Part shown: one piece after another, positions 34,874 through 41,355 of the stretch
Layout of the letters: every line of letters begins with the position of its first letter
Numbering within the stretch: the first letter of the stretch is position 1
NCBI RefSeq assembly: GCF_022968825.1
Contig: NZ_JALHKS010000003.1
Coordinates: forward strand, 186,001-250,000
Source of the DNA: Chryseobacterium salipaludis
Lineage (GTDB): Bacteria; Bacteroidota; Bacteroidia; Flavobacteriales; Weeksellaceae
Length of the DNA stretch: 64,000 bases
Reading direction: 5' to 3'
The notes under the pieces: model-generated
What the model was told of the DNA's origin: nothing
The model's input: only the letters and a program-made list of their open reading frames with translations
Database searches by the model: none
Position numbers and translations under genes: made by a program

Positions 34874-37267
34874 ATGAAACGACGAATCAAGCATGTCACG
34901 GTGCTCGGTTCCGGGATAATGGGTTCCGGAATCGCGGCGCACTTTGCCAACATTGGCGTACAGGTGCTGCTGCTGGACATCGTGCCGTTTGAACTTTCTG
35001 AAGCTGAGCAGAAAAAAGGGCTCACCAAAGAACACAAAGCTGTGCGAAACCGCATCGCTGACGAAAATCTGGCTAAGCTGAAAAAGGCCAGTCCTGCCCT
35101 GCTCTATTCTCCGGAATTTGCAGACAGAATACAGACCGGCAACTTCGATGATGATCTGCCGAAGATTAAGAACACCGACTGGATCATTGAAGTGGTGGTG
35201 GAAAAGATTGAAATTAAAAAATCTGTGTACGAGAAGGTGGAACAATTCCGCAAGCCCGGCACGCTGATTTCCTCCAACACCTCGGGAATTCCGATTCACC
35301 TGCTGACCGAAGGCCGCAGCGACGATTTTAAAAAGTACTTCGCGGGAACACACTTCTTTAATCCGGTTCGCTACCTGCCCTTGCTGGAAGTGATTCCGAC
35401 ACCGGACACAGACCCCGAAGTGACTAGATTCTATATGGAATACGGTGCAAAATTCCTGGGCAAGACCACAGTAGAAGCGAAAGATACACCAGCGTTTATC
35501 GCGAACCGAATCGGGGTTTTCTCCATGATGAATTTGCTGCATGAAGTAAAGAATCTGCGACTTAATGTTTCTGATATCGATAAGCTCACCGGCCCGATTA
35601 TCGGTCGCCCAAAATCCGCTACTTTCCGAACGGCGGATGTAGTCGGACTGGACACACTGGTGATGGTTGCCAAGGGCGTGCGCGGCAGTAAGGCAGAAGC
35701 CAATGATTTTAATGATGTTTTTAAACTTCCTGATTATATCGAAACCATGGTCAGCAACAACTGGCTGGGTTCGAAAACGCAACAGGGATTTTATAAAAAA
35801 ATTAAAAACGCCGAAGGTAAGTCAGAAATCCACGGATTGAACCTGGATACGATGGAATATGAGTTGCAGCCTAAAGGAAATTTCCCAACGCTGGAACTTA
35901 CCAAGAATATTGACCGGCCGATTGACCGGTTCAAAGTGCTGATCACCGGAAAAGATAAAGCCGGTGAACTGTACCGCAAATCTCTGGGTGCTTTGTTTGC
36001 GTATATTTCGCATAAAGTTCCGGAAATCTCTGATGATATTTACAAAGTAGATGACGCCATGCGCGCCGGATTTGGTTGGGAGAACGGTCCATTTGAAATC
36101 TGGGATGCAGTCGGAATTCAGAAAGGTATCGAACTGGCGCAGGAAGCCGGTTATCAGGTCGCGGACTGGGCGAAAGAAGTACCTTCTTTCTATAAAGTGA
36201 ATGATGAAGGACAATCCACATACTATGGCAAAGAGGATCAGAATTACCATGCGATTCCGGGACAGGAATCGATAATTAATCTCGATAATATCCGCAAAAA
36301 CAGAACACTCTGGAGCAATTCGGGCGCAGCCATCCAGGATTTGGGTGACGGTATCATCAATTTCGAAATACGCTCCAAGATGAATTCTCTGGGCGGCGAG
36401 GTACTGGACGGACTCAACCGAGCCATAGATCTGGCCGAAAAAGAATACGATGGCCTCGTGATCGCTAATCAGGGAGCCAATTTCTCGGTAGGTGCTAACT
36501 TAGCCATGATTCTGATGATGGCCATTGAGCAGGACTGGGACGATTTAAATATGGCCATCGCGTACTTCCAGAAATCGATGATGCGCGTGCGCTACTCTTC
36601 AATTCCGGTGGTGGTTGCTCCGCACGGAATGACGCTCGGTGGAGGCTGCGAAATGACCATGCATGCTGACCGTGTGGTAGCTGCTGCGGAAACGTATATC
36701 GGCCTGGTGGAAACCGGGGTAGGCGTAATTCCCGGCGGTGGCGGTACGAAAGAACTCACCCTGCGCACTTCGCAAGATTTCCAGAAAGATGACGTGAAAA
36801 CCAACCGCCTGCGCGATGCCTTCATGAATATCGCCATGGGCAAAGTTGCGACTTCCGCTTACGAGGCTTACGATATGGGAATCCTCCAGGAACACAAAGA
36901 TATTGTCAGCGTTAACAAAAACTACCAAATTAAAACGGCGAAAATGCTGGCTTTAAGTCTGGCCGAGCACGGATATACCCAGCCGATTGAGCAGAAAGTT
37001 AAGGTCCTGGGCCGCGACGCATTAGGAATGTTCTACGTAGGTACCGATCAGATGCTGGCCGGGAACTACATCTCGGAACACGACAAGCTTATCGCCGATA
37101 AACTCGCGAATGTCATGGTAGGTGGAAATCTGTCCGAAGCCACCGTCGTGAGCGAACAATATCTACTTAACCTAGAACGAGAAACCTTCCTCCAACTCTG
37201 CGGCGAACGCAAAACTCTGGAGAGAATTCAGCATATGCTGCAGAAGGGCAAACCGTTGAGGAATTAA
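34874..37267 (+). CDS. 3-hydroxyacyl-CoA dehydrogenase / enoyl-CoA hydratase fusion
   Basis: A 797-residue bifunctional beta-oxidation enzyme. The N-terminal half is the NAD-dependent 3-hydroxyacyl-CoA dehydrogenase with GSGIMGSGIAAHFANIG (12-28) and the catalytic His in GTHFFNPVRYLPLLEVI. The C-terminal half, about 500-720, is a crotonase-fold hydratase with the oxyanion-hole segment NFSVGANL and GGGCEMTMHADRV. The domain order (dehydrogenase first) is opposite to E. coli FadB and is the usual Bacteroidota form. It is preceded by marR. The next operon gene, thiolase, is displaced by a four-helix-bundle insert. Confidence 0.93.
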   Translation: MKRRIKHVTVLGSGIMGSGIAAHFANIGVQVLLLDIVPFELSEAEQKKGLTKEHKAVRNRIADENLAKLKKASPALLYSPEFADRIQTGNFDDDLPKIKNTDWIIEVVVEKIEIKKSVYEKVEQFRKPGTLISSNTSGIPIHLLTEGRSDDFKKYFAGTHFFNPVRYLPLLEVIPTPDTDPEVTRFYMEYGAKFLGKTTVEAKDTPAFIANRIGVFSMMNLLHEVKNLRLNVSDIDKLTGPIIGRPKSATFRTADVVGLDTLVMVAKGVRGSKAEANDFNDVFKLPDYIETMVSNNWLGSKTQQGFYKKIKNAEGKSEIHGLNLDTMEYELQPKGNFPTLELTKNIDRPIDRFKVLITGKDKAGELYRKSLGALFAYISHKVPEISDDIYKVDDAMRAGFGWENGPFEIWDAVGIQKGIELAQEAGYQVADWAKEVPSFYKVNDEGQSTYYGKEDQNYHAIPGQESIINLDNIRKNRTLWSNSGAAIQDLGDGIINFEIRSKMNSLGGEVLDGLNRAIDLAEKEYDGLVIANQGANFSVGANLAMILMMAIEQDWDDLNMAIAYFQKSMMRVRYSSIPVVVAPHGMTLGGGCEMTMHADRVVAAAETYIGLVETGVGVIPGGGGTKELTLRTSQDFQKDDVKTNRLRDAFMNIAMGKVATSAYEAYDMGILQEHKDIVSVNKNYQIKTAKMLALSLAEHGYTQPIEQKVKVLGRDALGMFYVGTDQMLAGNYISEHDKLIADKLANVMVGGNLSEATVVSEQYLLNLERETFLQLCGERKTLERIQHMLQKGKPLRN

Positions 37268-37272
37268 TTTTT

Positions 37273-37314
37273 GTACAGTGCACACAGTACTTTGTACAAT
37301 GTAAAAAGTATAAT
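37273..37314. repeat. Left heptad array and inverted repeat of four-helix-bundle insert 1
   Basis: Six imperfect 7-bp units mostly beginning GTA (GTACAGT, GCACACA, GTACTTT, GTACAAT, GTAAAAA, GTATAAT) run from just after the dehydrogenase stop. Within it, 37294-37313 is the reverse complement of 37784-37803 at 19 of 20 positions. The two arrays thus face each other across the 37354-37716 gene. Confidence 0.7.
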
Positions 37315-37353
37315 GATAGGCAATACACAGTCGACAGTTTAAATTTTTGATTC

Positions 37354-37716
37354 ATGCATAATTTTCGGGAATTGGAAGTGTGGAAAAAAGCCGTTATGCT
37401 GGCAACCACTTATTATGAGTGTTCCAAAACATTTCCGCGCGAGGAGATTTTTGGATTAACATCGCAGTCACGCAGATGCGTAGTTTCGATTGCCTCTAAT
37501 ATTGCTGAAGGTGCCGGCCGGGATTCTAGCAAACAGTTTGTACAATTCCTGGGAATTGCGCTGGGATCTGCATTTGAGTTTGAAACGCAAATTATAATTG
37601 CGGACAGACTGGACTATTTGAGCGATCATGAGTCTTATACTCTTAAAGAGGAAATAACACATATTGAGAATATGCTGATCAGGCTCATTGCACGGTTAAA
37701 AGAATCCGCTACCTAG
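37354..37716 (+). CDS. Four-helix-bundle protein (23S rRNA IVS / S23 family), insert 1
   Basis: A 120-residue protein of the TIGR02436/PF05635 family, whose members include ORFs of 23S rRNA intervening sequences and the Avd accessory protein of diversity-generating retroelements. Family landmarks are FRELEVWKKAVML near the start, FPREEIFGLTSQSRR (38-52), SIASNIAEGAGR and FLGIALGSAFEFETQ. The protein is basic in part and probably forms a pentameric barrel that may bind nucleic acid. It sits alone between two genes of a fatty-acid operon, co-oriented with them and flanked by complementary heptad arrays. No reverse transcriptase or rRNA is near. Function here is unknown. Confidence 0.85.
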   Translation: MHNFRELEVWKKAVMLATTYYECSKTFPREEIFGLTSQSRRCVVSIASNIAEGAGRDSSKQFVQFLGIALGSAFEFETQIIIADRLDYLSDHESYTLKEEITHIENMLIRLIARLKESAT

Positions 37717-37810
37717 TACTAGATACTTTATACATTATTCTTTATTCTTTATTCTTTATTCTTTATTCTTTATTCTTTATACTTTATACTTTATACATTG
37801 TACTTTATAC
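37713..37810. repeat. Right heptad array and inverted repeat of four-helix-bundle insert 1
   Basis: Fourteen head-to-tail 7-bp units cover the stop codon and all of the spacer: CTAGTAC, TAGATAC, TTTATAC, ATTATTC, five TTTATTC, three TTTATAC, ATTGTAC, TTTATAC. Bases 37784-37803 are complementary to 37294-37313 (19 of 20). The array is the entire spacer apart from the last 24 bp before the thiolase. Confidence 0.8.
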
Positions 37811-37834
37811 AAAACCATAACACATTTAATAAAA

Positions 37835-39013
37835 ATGAAACAAGCATACATCATCAAAGGCTACAGAACGGCCGTCGGGAAAGCCCCGAAGGGAAGCCTG
37901 CGATTTACACGGCCCGATGTGATGGCCGCCACCGTAATTGAAAAATTAATGGCCGATGTGCCACAACTTGATAAAAACAGAATTGATGACCTCATCGTCG
38001 GGAACGCCATGCCCGAAGCTGAACAGGGGTTAAACGTGGCTCGTCTGATCTCGCTGATGGGCCTGAAAACTGATCAGGTTCCGGGCGTTACCGTTAACCG
38101 GTACTGCGCGTCGGGAAGTGAAGCTATCGCTATTGCTTCCGCCAAAATCCAGGCCGGCATGGCGGATTGCATTATTGCCGGGGGCACAGAATCGATGTCC
38201 TACATCCCGATGGGCGGTTACAAACCCGTTCCTGAAACCGATGTCGCCAAATCCAATCCGGATTATTACTGGGGCATGGGCTATACCGCAGAAGCTGTTG
38301 CCAAAGAGTTTAATATTTCACGTGAGGAGCAGGACGCCTTCGCTTTTGACTCACATCAAAAAGCTTTGCGCGCCAATGCCGAAGGCCGGTTTAAAAACCA
38401 AATTGTGCCGGTGCCCGTTGAATTTAATTATCTGGATGAAAACCAGAAAATGCAGACCAAAAAATTCGATTTCGCTGTCGACGAAGGACCACGCGCAGAC
38501 ACTTCGTTGGAAGGTTTAGCGAAACTGCGTCCGGTTTTTTCAAACGGCGGAACGGTAACTGCCGGCAACTCATCGCAAATGAGCGACGGTGCCGCCTTCG
38601 TGATTGTCATGTCTGAGGAGATGGTAAAAGAACTCAATCTTGAGCCAGAAGCACGCCTGGTTGCGTATGCTGCCGCAGGTCTGGAACCGCGCATTATGGG
38701 GATGGGCCCACTGTATGCTGTTCCGAAAGTTTTAAAACAAGCCGGCATGCAATTACAGGATATCGAACTGATCGAACTGAACGAGGCATTTGCCAGCCAA
38801 TCGGTTGCGCTGAAGAAAGAACTCGGTCTGAATCCGGATATTCTCAATGTCAACGGCGGTGCCATCGCGCTCGGCCATCCACTCGGCTGCAGCGGAACCA
38901 AACTGACCGTGCAGCTCCTCGACGAAATGCGCAAACGCGGCAACAAATACGGCATGGTCACCATGTGTGTGGGAACAGGCCAGGGAGCAGCGAGTATATT
39001 TGAATTACTTTGA
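37835..39013 (+). CDS. Acetyl-CoA C-acyltransferase (3-ketoacyl-CoA thiolase)
   Basis: A 392-residue thiolase that cleaves 3-ketoacyl-CoA in the last step of each beta-oxidation round. Catalytic residues are Cys91 in NRYCASGSEA, His348 in GHPLGCSG and Cys378 in MCVGTGQG. The TAVGKAPKGSLRFTRPD insertion near the start and the MCVGTGQGAA ending match FadA/FadI-like degradative thiolases and differ from the AtoB-like enzyme at 18810-19988. It lies in the operon after the dehydrogenase/hydratase fusion, separated from it by insert 1 and from the acyl-CoA dehydrogenase by insert 2. Confidence 0.93.
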   Translation: MKQAYIIKGYRTAVGKAPKGSLRFTRPDVMAATVIEKLMADVPQLDKNRIDDLIVGNAMPEAEQGLNVARLISLMGLKTDQVPGVTVNRYCASGSEAIAIASAKIQAGMADCIIAGGTESMSYIPMGGYKPVPETDVAKSNPDYYWGMGYTAEAVAKEFNISREEQDAFAFDSHQKALRANAEGRFKNQIVPVPVEFNYLDENQKMQTKKFDFAVDEGPRADTSLEGLAKLRPVFSNGGTVTAGNSSQMSDGAAFVIVMSEEMVKELNLEPEARLVAYAAAGLEPRIMGMGPLYAVPKVLKQAGMQLQDIELIELNEAFASQSVALKKELGLNPDILNVNGGAIALGHPLGCSGTKLTVQLLDEMRKRGNKYGMVTMCVGTGQGAASIFELL

Positions 39014-39044
39014 TTTCTGAGAAAAGAAAAAAGAGAAAGAAAAT

Positions 39045-39080
39045 AGACTTTAAGATAATAGAAGAAAAGATAATAGACTT
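39045..39080. repeat. Left 36-bp inverted repeat of four-helix-bundle insert 2
   Basis: Bases 39045-39080 match the reverse complement of 39510-39545 at 28 of 36 positions without gaps. The first six and last nine or so positions match best (AGACTT at each end). It follows a purine-rich run (39021-39044). Confidence 0.7.
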
Positions 39081-39103
39081 CAGCAGCTATAAAAATTTAA
39101 ATT

Positions 39104-39469
39104 ATGGATTTACCAAAGAGACATAATTTTAAAAAGCTGAAAATCTGGTTGATGGGTGTGGATATCGCAAATGATGTTTACACCATTTCTGCAGAATTTC
39201 CTCAGTTCGAAATGTATGGCCTAAAGAGTCAAATGAACAGGTCTTCAATTTCAATTCCTTCTAACATTGTAGAAGGTTCTAGTAGATCAGACAAGTCATT
39301 TATTCATTTTTTGGATATATCTCTTGGTTCATCTTATGAATTACAAACACAACTAATTCTGGCTAAAAGCAGAGCATATATTGAAGATGAAAAAGCTAGC
39401 GAACTTGAAGAAAAAATTGAAAATTTCCAAAGAGCTACAATGATTTTTCAAAATACTTTGAAATCGTAA
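39104..39469 (+). CDS. Four-helix-bundle protein (23S rRNA IVS / S23 family), insert 2
   Basis: A 121-residue member of the same family as the protein at 37354-37716, but clearly diverged. Shared landmarks are FKKLKIWLMGVDIA, FPQFEMYGLKSQMNR, SIPSNIVEGSSR and FLDISLGSSYELQTQ. The gene is visibly richer in A and T than the beta-oxidation genes on both sides, with lysine and serine codons ending in A or T, suggesting a separate origin. It lies co-oriented between thiolase and acyl-CoA dehydrogenase, bracketed by a 36-bp imperfect inverted repeat. The two inserts do not share their flanking sequences. Function is unknown. Confidence 0.85.
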   Translation: MDLPKRHNFKKLKIWLMGVDIANDVYTISAEFPQFEMYGLKSQMNRSSISIPSNIVEGSSRSDKSFIHFLDISLGSSYELQTQLILAKSRAYIEDEKASELEEKIENFQRATMIFQNTLKS

Positions 39470-39509
39470 TTGCACGGTTGAACCTTTTTATAACATTATA
39501 CCTTATTAA

Positions 39510-39545
39510 AAGTCTATAATCTTAAAATCTATCATATTTAAGTCT
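39510..39545. repeat. Right 36-bp inverted repeat of four-helix-bundle insert 2
   Basis: The partner of 39045-39080, complementary at 28 of 36 positions. It begins 40 bp after the stop codon and ends 31 bp before the acyl-CoA dehydrogenase ATG. Confidence 0.7.
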
Positions 39546-39576
39546 CATATACAAACCTATAAACAAAATAAAAAAT

Positions 39577-41355
39577 ATGTCCAACACAATACAAGGCGGT
39601 GAATTTATCATTAAAGATATTCCTGCACAGGAAATTTTCAGTTTGGAAGAACTGAATGAAGAACAAAAAATGCTGCGCGATTCACTGCGTGATTTTATGG
39701 CGCGCGAAGTAATTCCGAATCGCGAACGTTTTGAACAAAAAGATTATGCACTCACAGAAGAACTGATGCGCAAGCTTGGCGAAATGGGAATTCTCGGAAT
39801 TGCTGTGCCGGAAGCGTATGGCGGTCTGGGGATGGGTTTCGTTACCACCATGCTCGCGTGCGATATAGTTTCCGGCGCAAATGGTTCCCTGGCAACGGCT
39901 TACGGCGCACATACCGGGATCGGGACGCTTCCGATCCTGCTGTACGGAAATGAGGAACAAAAACAAAAATATCTGCCGGCTCTAGCGGCAGGCGAAAAGT
40001 TTGGCGCATACTGTCTGACTGAGCCTGACGCCGGCTCCGATGCGAACTCCGGAAAAACGAAAGCTACGCTCACCGAAGATGGAAAACACTACATCATCAA
40101 TGGGCAGAAAATGTGGATTTCCAACGCCGGTTTTGCAGATACCTTCACTTTATTTGCCCGGATTGGCGATGATAAGAACATCACCGGATTTGTGATTAAC
40201 CGATCAGAACTGGAAAACCCGGAGAGCATGACTTTGGGCGCTGAGGAACACAAGCTCGGCATCCGCTCCTCCTCCACCCGCCAGGTGTTTTTTAATGAGA
40301 TGAAGATCCCCGCGGAAAACCTGTTAGGCGAAAGAAACAACGGTTTTAAAATTGCGCTGAACGCTCTTAATGCAGGACGAATCAAACTCGCTGCAGCCAA
40401 TTTGGACGGGCAAAGACGTATCACTGACCTGGCGATTACCTACGCCAATGAGCGAAAACAATTCGGAGTTGCGATTTCAACCTTCGGTGCCATCAGAAAG
40501 AAAATAGCGGAAATGTGCACCGGTATTTTTGTATCGGAATCAGGTGCTTACCGTGCCGCGAAAAACGTAGAGGACATGGTGGAAAAACTGGTTGCCGACG
40601 GAATGGAGCACGAAAAAGCCGAAATGAAAGCACTGGAAAACTTCGCCGTGGAATGTTCTATCTTAAAGGTTTATGTTTCGGATTTAACACAACATATTGC
40701 AGACGAAGGACTTCAGATTTATGGCGGAATGGGCTTTTCGGAAGATGCTCCGATGGAAGCCGCCTGGCGCGACGCCCGTATCGGCCGTATTTATGAAGGA
40801 ACCAACGAAATCAACCGTTTACTTTCCGTAGGAATGTTGATTAAAAAAGCCATGAAAGGTGAACTGGATTTACTCACACCGGCGATGGGCATCAGCAAAG
40901 AACTGATGGGCATTCCTTCCTTTGACGTTCCCGATTACTCGGAATATATGTCTGAAGAAAAAGCGATTATCCATAACCTGAAAAAAGTATTTTTGATGGT
41001 TTCCGGGGCGGCTCTTCAGAAATACATGACCGAGATCGAAAAACAACAGCACCTGCTGCTGAACGCGTCGGAAATTCTGAACCAAATTTACATGGCGGAA
41101 TCCGCAATTCTGCGCGCCGAGAAGCACTTCGAGCAGGATTCACCGCAAGCTATGATGGCACAGCTCAATTTGTATAAAGCTGTGGAAGCCATTACACAGG
41201 CGGCCAAAGAAGGAATCGTTTCCTTTGCAGAGGGTGATGAACAGCGAATGATGCTGTCCGGCCTACGCAGATTTACGAAATACACCAATATGCCGAACGT
41301 GGTGGCATTTACAGAAAAAATTGCTGCCCATTATATTGATAAAGGTTCATTCTAA
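39577..41355 (+). CDS. Acyl-CoA dehydrogenase
   Basis: A 592-residue FAD enzyme that introduces the 2,3 double bond in acyl-CoA, the first step of beta-oxidation. Family signatures are AYCLTEPDAGSDANSGKT, the KMWISNAGFADTFTLFA flavin region, RKQFG, the Q-I-Y-G-G-M-G segment QIYGGMGFSEDAPM and the C-terminal YEGTNEINRLL. The protein carries an additional C-terminal domain of about 170 residues, as in the VLCAD-like branch. It closes the marR operon and is followed by a strong terminator. Its electrons should go to ETF, encoded at 22121-23845. Confidence 0.95.
   Translation: MSNTIQGGEFIIKDIPAQEIFSLEELNEEQKMLRDSLRDFMAREVIPNRERFEQKDYALTEELMRKLGEMGILGIAVPEAYGGLGMGFVTTMLACDIVSGANGSLATAYGAHTGIGTLPILLYGNEEQKQKYLPALAAGEKFGAYCLTEPDAGSDANSGKTKATLTEDGKHYIINGQKMWISNAGFADTFTLFARIGDDKNITGFVINRSELENPESMTLGAEEHKLGIRSSSTRQVFFNEMKIPAENLLGERNNGFKIALNALNAGRIKLAAANLDGQRRITDLAITYANERKQFGVAISTFGAIRKKIAEMCTGIFVSESGAYRAAKNVEDMVEKLVADGMEHEKAEMKALENFAVECSILKVYVSDLTQHIADEGLQIYGGMGFSEDAPMEAAWRDARIGRIYEGTNEINRLLSVGMLIKKAMKGELDLLTPAMGISKELMGIPSFDVPDYSEYMSEEKAIIHNLKKVFLMVSGAALQKYMTEIEKQQHLLLNASEILNQIYMAESAILRAEKHFEQDSPQAMMAQLNLYKAVEAITQAAKEGIVSFAEGDEQRMMLSGLRRFTKYTNMPNVVAFTEKIAAHYIDKGSF

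Follow-up and report, generated by a model that had tools for sequence, protein, structure and literature searches.

What kind of element occupies two neighboring gaps of a beta-oxidation operon in Chryseobacterium salipaludis? The operon lies in a 64,000-nucleotide stretch of contig NZ_JALHKS010000003.1 (hereafter, the window), and its genes, all on the + strand of this member of the Weeksellaceae, encode a MarR regulator, a fadB-like protein, a thiolase and a fadE-like acyl-CoA dehydrogenase. Among named relatives of the thiolase, the best matches come from Chryseobacterium and Kaistella. The gaps between the fadB-like and thiolase genes and between the thiolase and fadE-like genes measure 567 and 563 nt. 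The original prediction, made from the sequence alone, held that each contains a single co-oriented gene of the S23/TIGR02436 type bracketed by complementary arms. Profile matches and alignments confirmed this: both gaps carry one PF05635/TIGR02436 gene on the strand of its neighbors, with arms that pair at 19 of 20 positions around the first gene (insert 1) and at 28 of 36 around the second (insert 2). The two inserts do not have their repeats in common, as had also been claimed. S23/IVP proteins are widely annotated, and in none of the literature that we found had a function been assigned to them. We consider it fairly probable that the inserts are intercistronic cousins of the intervening sequences (IVS) of ribosomal RNA (rRNA), consisting of an S23 gene between inverted, usually degenerate-heptad arms and bound mostly to their sites.

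If the complementarity were at the chance level of such spacers, the idea of bracketed inserts would fall; it proved to be above chance. None of 5000 dinucleotide-preserving shuffles of both flanks was as good as the insert 1 arms and 2 of 5000 were as good as those of insert 2; chance pairing of AT-rich spacers was rejected on these shuffles together with the small-gene controls described below. The 5' flank of insert 1 was fitted better by its own 3' flank than by all 191 taken from elements with less than 55% protein identity, while 12 of 197 such flanks fitted that of insert 2 equally well. Predicted transcript folds pair the arms of both inserts (z of -3.68 for insert 1 and -2.65 for insert 2, 100 shuffles each). 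Consensus folds of two lineages also pair them, with double changes at one arm pair in four sequences (columns 99/539) and at another in a single sequence (columns 63/533). Heptad structure is present in the arms of both inserts; a scan of the window for strong heptad arrays returned positions 37722-37810 alone (mean of 0.0 in 20 shuffled windows), the heptads of insert 2 falling under its threshold. The insert 1 protein matches a solved member of the S23 family, 2gsc (Xcc0516), and more weakly 2rld. Rfam gave no match over positions 36900-39900 at the gathering threshold, and neither did phage records queried with insert 1.

The genome under study contains five PF05635 copies, and 73 of the 100 genomes searched, this one included, have at least one match. 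From it and related genomes we collected 225 distinct S23 genes, 217 of them with complete flanks (8/225 were dropped); about half of the 225 loci sit in the fad operon because its thiolase was also used as a search query. Arms were scored as the best inverted match between 160 nt on each side, with a threshold of 26 (mononucleotide-shuffled flanks gave 25 at their 99th percentile). This score was reached by 145 of the 217 S23 loci (medians of 30 observed and 16 shuffled) and by 19 of 376 control genes, which were genes of 80-300 codons from the same loci after exclusion of S23 genes, Y1-type genes and genes near S23 genes. Arms with a heptad period were detected in 95/217 S23 loci versus 4/376 controls. 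By site, 44 of 61 had at least one locus passing the arm threshold. Overall, inverted arms accompany S23 genes far more often than they do the other small genes of these loci, and the earlier suggestion of a family of intergenic elements is supported across the 217 loci and on plasmids. In the genome under study, insert 1, insert 2 and one further copy (L211) pass. The own 3' flank was the best of all 217 in just 38 cases and ranked among the top 5% in 116, partly because elements of one lineage have common arms.

A seven-base rhythm runs through the arms. Their autocorrelation was 0.555, 0.522 and 0.483 at lags 7, 14 and 21 (0.33-0.34 after shuffling), and among 118 arms of at least 24 nt the best of the periods tested (4-12) was 7 in 81 and 8 in 21. 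Strong period-7 arrays numbered 82 in 74,417 bp near S23 genes versus 49 in 1,494,230 bp elsewhere, a density about 34 times higher in the 150-nt S23 flanks than in the rest of the same loci; part of the 49 lie in gaps without a recognized gene. Period-8 arrays were found 38 times near S23 genes and 22 times elsewhere, and periods 5, 6, 9 and 10 gave 1-10 arrays near S23 genes. In one lineage alignment the heptad unit consists of a conserved core, TTAGA, and variable positions. The 5' arm contains 22% G and 6% C, with G exceeding C in 136 of 145 arms. One might suppose that the complementarity arises incidentally when low-complexity heptads slip in AT-rich spacers, as heptad arrays slip readily and their copy number varies among Coxiella strains according to one report (PMC4990558). 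This explanation is already disfavored and we regard it as very improbable, given that slippage yields direct, not inverted, repeats, that the arms of other lineages seldom fit and control genes are seldom armed, and that plasmids of G+C-rich hosts are armed too (L254, L260, L261).

The original prediction had also assigned each insert its own type of repeat, and we found more generally that the type of arm goes with the lineage of the protein. When elements of one gap were compared in pairs, own arms gave a better fit than arms swapped between the two in 707 of 708 cases at 40-50% protein identity, in 476 versus 7 at 50-60% and in 138 versus 42 at 60-70%, these pairs overlapping; among 63 disjoint pairs at 55-90% identity, own arms were better in 40 and swapped arms in 21, with 2 ties. 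Between different sites, arm sequence was shared by 9 of the 14 pairs with at least 70% protein identity, by 15% of 47 pairs at 60-70%, by 3% of 631 at 50-60% and by about 1% or less below 50%. The 14 pairs reuse few elements and the sites are automatic clusters, so these numbers are suggestive; the trend, by which arm sharing across sites rises with protein identity, is clear. Mononucleotide, not dinucleotide, shuffles were used both in the comparison of the insert 1 and insert 2 flanks with 3' flanks of other elements and for the short gaps considered below.

The elements fit closely between stop and start codons: the median distance from the upstream stop codon to the 5' arm was 5 nt and that from the 3' arm to the next open reading frame (ORF) was 14 nt (n = 137). 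Gene and both neighbors were co-directional at 53 of 60 distinct sites. Outside co-directional pairs we found ten single loci, seven of them armed and six of these with G exceeding C on the 5' side; four of the ten are strictly antisense, two of which are armed (L183, L187). Since the excess of G over C is kept in armed loci that are not co-directional, polarity seems to be a property of the element. Neighbors elsewhere, judged by sequence appearance, include rfbB-rfbA, carA-carB, a metH-like gene and groEL. The features of the operon and its inserts are listed below.

Table 1. Positions of the two inserts, their parts and the adjoining operon genes in the window.
Feature	Position	Strand	Remarks
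Host gene, FadB-like 3-hydroxyacyl-CoA dehydrogenase/enoyl-CoA hydratase	34874..37267	+	5' of insert 1
Insert 1 5' arm, inverted-repeat core, heptad type TGTACAA/TGTAAAA/AGTATAA	37294..37313	+	19/20 complementary
Insert 1 gene, 120 aa, 23S_rRNA_IVP / TIGR02436 four-helix bundle	37354..37716	+	PF05635 6.8e-37, TIGR02436 1.8e-35, PDB 2gsc 9.4e-20
Heptad tandem array (ATTCTTT/ATACTTT), 3' of insert 1 gene, includes 3' arm	37722..37810	+	
Insert 1 3' arm	37784..37803	+	19/20 complementary to 5' arm
Host gene, thiolase (acetyl-CoA C-acyltransferase), between inserts	37835..39013	+	
Insert 2 5' arm, heptad type TAATAGA	39045..39080	+	28/36, alignment
Insert 2 gene, 121 aa, 23S_rRNA_IVP / TIGR02436 four-helix bundle	39104..39469	+	PF05635 5e-32, TIGR02436 1.1e-28
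Insert 2 3' arm	39510..39545	+	alignment with 5' arm
Host gene, FadE-like acyl-CoA dehydrogenase, 3' of insert 2	39577..41355	+	

Similar elements are found on plasmids, where protein searches returned relatives mainly in cyanobacteria. Our plasmid set of 28 loci represents part of the matches, and arms were judged against the 99% level of each locus's own shuffles (200 each). With narrower flanks 12 of 16 loci were armed, and with wider flanks and 12 further loci inverted arms were found in 23 of 28 (L248 and L249 being near-copies). The lag-7 autocorrelation over all arms was 0.63, identity at lag 7 was at least 0.5 in 16 of the 23 armed loci, and G exceeded C in 22 of the 23. Heptad units include AGGGAAC, AGGTGAC, AGTCAGA and GGGAGTA. 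Armed loci come from hosts such as Nostoc, Treponema, Azospirillum, Gemmatirosa and Bernardetia, a range that takes in cyanobacteria, one spirochaete, one alphaproteobacterium and further groups. S23 genes also lie between plasmid transfer genes and between cas genes, in the orders cas6-S23-cas4 (L250, L252) and cas10-S23-cmr3 (L259). A survey of cas loci counts 18 23S_rRNA_IVP genes among associated functions (PMC3936711). These genes are of the same family, in operon gaps, as the inserts described here. While S23 is listed there as a cas-associated function, two of our three cases (L250, L259) carry the element's own inverted arms, which suggests that they may be passengers. The third locus has direct rather than inverted heptads on both sides (L252:1381-2000; AAAGCTA upstream, AAAGCCA downstream).

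Among relatives, both gaps are hot spots with patchy occupancy and several element lineages each. Of 116 distinct thiolase loci, 113 were readable at gap 1. An S23 gene or fragment fills 53 of these gaps and a Y1-type gene 23, while 20 hold a short sequence, 15 hold nothing (45 nt or less) and 2 contain something else; gap 1 of L112 is a run of N and was set aside, not counted as empty. The 106 readable gaps at the second site held an S23 gene or fragment (55), a short sequence (28), nothing by the same limit (14) or something else (9), and never a Y1-type gene. Orthologous gaps without the insert, for which a search had been proposed, are therefore present at both sites. When presence was mapped onto a tree built from the flanking genes (100 loci, after omission of the 16 of 116 that lacked at least one of the three genes), it changed about as often as with shuffled labels (32 vs 32.6 and 31 vs 33.5). 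The S23 protein tree clusters by site, with 9 changes vs 85 when shuffled (200 proteins and few columns, 25/225 with a short domain being left out). At least three lineages occur in each gap, with sizes of 13, 12 and 11 in gap 1 and of 16, 12, 8 and 6 in gap 2. Distances within these seven lineages correlate with those of the thiolase gene (Mantel r 0.28-0.86, p<0.05 in six of seven; 3 of 100 gap-labelled elements were left out). Codon positions 1 and 2 differ by 0.07-0.16, 2.6 to 4.8 times less than position 3 (0.35-0.45), which indicates that the S23 protein is under constraint by purifying selection. Taken together, site clustering, the Mantel range and scattered occupancy indicate lineages that are mostly gap-bound, partly inherited and often lost or replaced.

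These data bear on the notion that S23 is an ordinary resident gene of the operon and that its arms regulate, as attenuator or mRNA-stability hairpins. Purifying selection, the partly vertical inheritance within lineages and the clustering of proteins by site are in its favor, as is the persistence of hairpins without an ORF. On the other hand, occupancy as scattered as shuffled labels, empty gaps in operons retaining both neighbors, and the same layout at functionally unrelated cas, plasmid transfer, carA-carB, rfbB-rfbA and metH-like sites (the last three by appearance) make us regard resident host genes as an unlikely explanation. The hairpins in question were found in 13 of 48 short gaps, with heptad arms and neither an S23 ORF nor a REP-like motif; at least 2 of the 13, judged by eye, hold apparent S23 gene remnants. 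One more short gap (L093) has such a remnant by eye, its heptads being under the threshold.

The ORF-less hairpins also resemble miniature derivatives of a DNA-level mobile element, in which the arms would be terminal inverted repeats for a transposase or other enzyme acting in trans and the RNA stem would be incidental. As this explanation would have it, the type of arm and the type of protein stay together from site to site, and a Y1-type gene with its own REP-like repeats occupies gap 1 in 23/113 loci. No target-site duplication was readable by eye in the gap alignments. The genome under study has no match to the PF00078 reverse transcriptase or the PF01797 Y1 transposase despite its five S23 copies, and five other genomes with 5-9 copies (G014, G034, G060, G084, G088) match neither model. 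We therefore rejected a resident reverse transcriptase or Y1 transposase as a requirement for persistence; PF00078 and PF01797 enzymes are not needed for maintenance of the element, and past help from them is possible. Furthermore, unlike usual terminal repeats, the arms differ by lineage and are polar with respect to the gene, with more G than C on its 5' side (136/145). On balance a DNA-level mobile element appears somewhat unlikely to us.

Several side observations concern the same loci. The alternative occupant of gap 1, seen for example in L069, L071, L074 and L101, is an IS200-like Y1 gene with REP-like hairpins (GCTCCGTAGGAGC); Y1-type genes were recognized by motif, with a Pfam check in one locus. 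In genome G059, the 98% identical proteins of L184 and L196 lie in a paralogous alignment of 2,995 columns with 89.5% identity, upstream DNA included, and judging from this alignment the element may have been homogenized between paralogous sites. Large heptad arrays of the AACCCGC type (L212:209-789) are present about 3.6 kb upstream of a copy in the genome under study that has no arms by the test used. Finally, a second type of small gene lies between CGCAAAG-type inverted repeats (L121:466-846, L142:345-722 and L123:453-830, scores 66, 65 and 28) with no clear 7-base period. The L121 gene, scanned alone, is PDDEXK_3 (PF13366); these genes, presumably the ones known as 'GxxExxY', may represent another element of these bacteria that combines a small gene with inverted repeats.

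We thus return to the inserts as cousins of rRNA IVS. In the transcript, their arms would pair to form a long stem whose loop contains the S23 gene, a self-contained module that the operon may tolerate or that may be selfish. Processing of double-stranded RNA, by RNase III for example, could part the insert from its neighbors harmlessly, and the S23 oligomer probably recognizes the heptad stem of its own lineage. Spread would occur mainly as a gap allele, through loss, regain and replacement, perhaps via recombination of the flanking operon DNA, and new sites would be reached rarely.

A number of results weigh against this reading. Arms are under the threshold in 72 of 217 S23 loci, including two copies in the genome under study (L210 and L212, scores 23 and 14), and 7 of the 23 armed plasmid loci have another spacing without a clear 7-base period. 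Seven of the 60 sites are not co-directional, and two armed S23 genes on cyanobacterial plasmids are antisense within co-directed pairs (L247 and L262; the gene pairs are annotated as secretion genes and ribonucleotide reductase subunits). At 70% protein identity or more within a gap, own arms were no better than swapped arms (104 vs 116, 49 vs 72 and 17 vs 27), as expected if the arms were still undiverged, yet this lends no support. As regards RNA, covariation is thin within the two lineages, with an unfavorable term (+0.75 and +0.84 respectively). Mismatches in the arms show no G-U wobble bias in the sense RNA and lean the opposite way (89 vs 150), so tolerance of sense-strand wobble is not supported. 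Moreover, among 142 within-genome S23 pairs the maximum identity was 67% except for one pair at 98%, the sole one above 70%, which shares its upstream gene; no recent transposition was found and no movement to a new site was caught.

We tentatively advance a broader proposal, which is possible without being the expected outcome: S23/IVP genes with heptad arms might all belong to a single class of tiny elements found throughout bacteria. The RNA stem of such an element, read heptad by heptad by the S23 pentamer, would be the unit in which it is recognized and inherited. The rRNA IVS, the 'CRISPR-associated' S23 genes and many of the unexplained heptanucleotide repeats between genes of cyanobacteria and Bacteroidota would then count as members, derivatives or relics of this class. 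The common architecture, a gene with lineage-specific inverted arms placed from stop to start, would turn these scattered oddities into one testable class. It leads to a prediction about binding, namely that protein lineage X binds heptad X, and the polycistronic mRNA setting offers a bench assay free of ribosome effects. It also cautions that an S23 gene found in a cas operon may be a passenger.

How do the inserts compare with known systems? Intergenic tandem heptads (here 37722-37810) are a trait in common with the heptamer repeats of cyanobacteria, which we take to be those named STRRs. Heptamer repeats described to date include TAACTGA (PMC4679880) and GGGAATC/GGGGATT of Xanthomonas and Nostoc (PMC4692102), and some of the Xanthomonas heptamers occur as inverted pairs, as in the arms here. 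These papers treat the repeats alone, the words 'S23' and 'four helix' being absent from their main text. In the literature that we searched, mostly open-access and without preprints, heptad repeats linked to S23 genes outside rRNA were not found. RAYT and IS200-like Y1 elements with REP hairpins similarly have a small gene between inverted repeats and occupy gap 1 in relatives, but their protein is another one, their repeats are palindromic and the genome under study has no PF01797 match. The Avd protein of diversity-generating retroelements is a similar four-helix bundle, according to one paper (PMC10053308), and one S23 copy gave a weak bAvd match below the Pfam cut-off; as a difference from these retroelements, the genome under study lacks a PF00078 reverse transcriptase match. 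The closest parallel is the S23-coding 23S rRNA IVS of Coxiella and Leptospira. According to the Coxiella report (PMC4990558), such IVS likewise have an S23/PF05635 gene looped between complementary ends and a sporadic distribution, and in that of Coxiella heptads are repeated in tandem within the 5' region, upstream of the ORF, where RNase III cuts. Two differences stand out: the 23S IVS sits in rRNA and the inserts sit between protein genes of a beta-oxidation operon, and the Coxiella ORF is reported there as decaying whereas the insert proteins are under purifying selection. The IVS layout put forward in the original prediction thus holds for the S23 gene, the stem-capable termini and the sporadic presence, and not for the location inside rRNA that defines a strict IVS. 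Owing to the heptads upstream of the Coxiella ORF, support for this layout exceeds what that prediction itself had offered. The gene, the stem-forming ends and the heptads are common to the Coxiella IVS, as described in that report, and to our inserts, and tie them, location aside, to a recognized intervening sequence.

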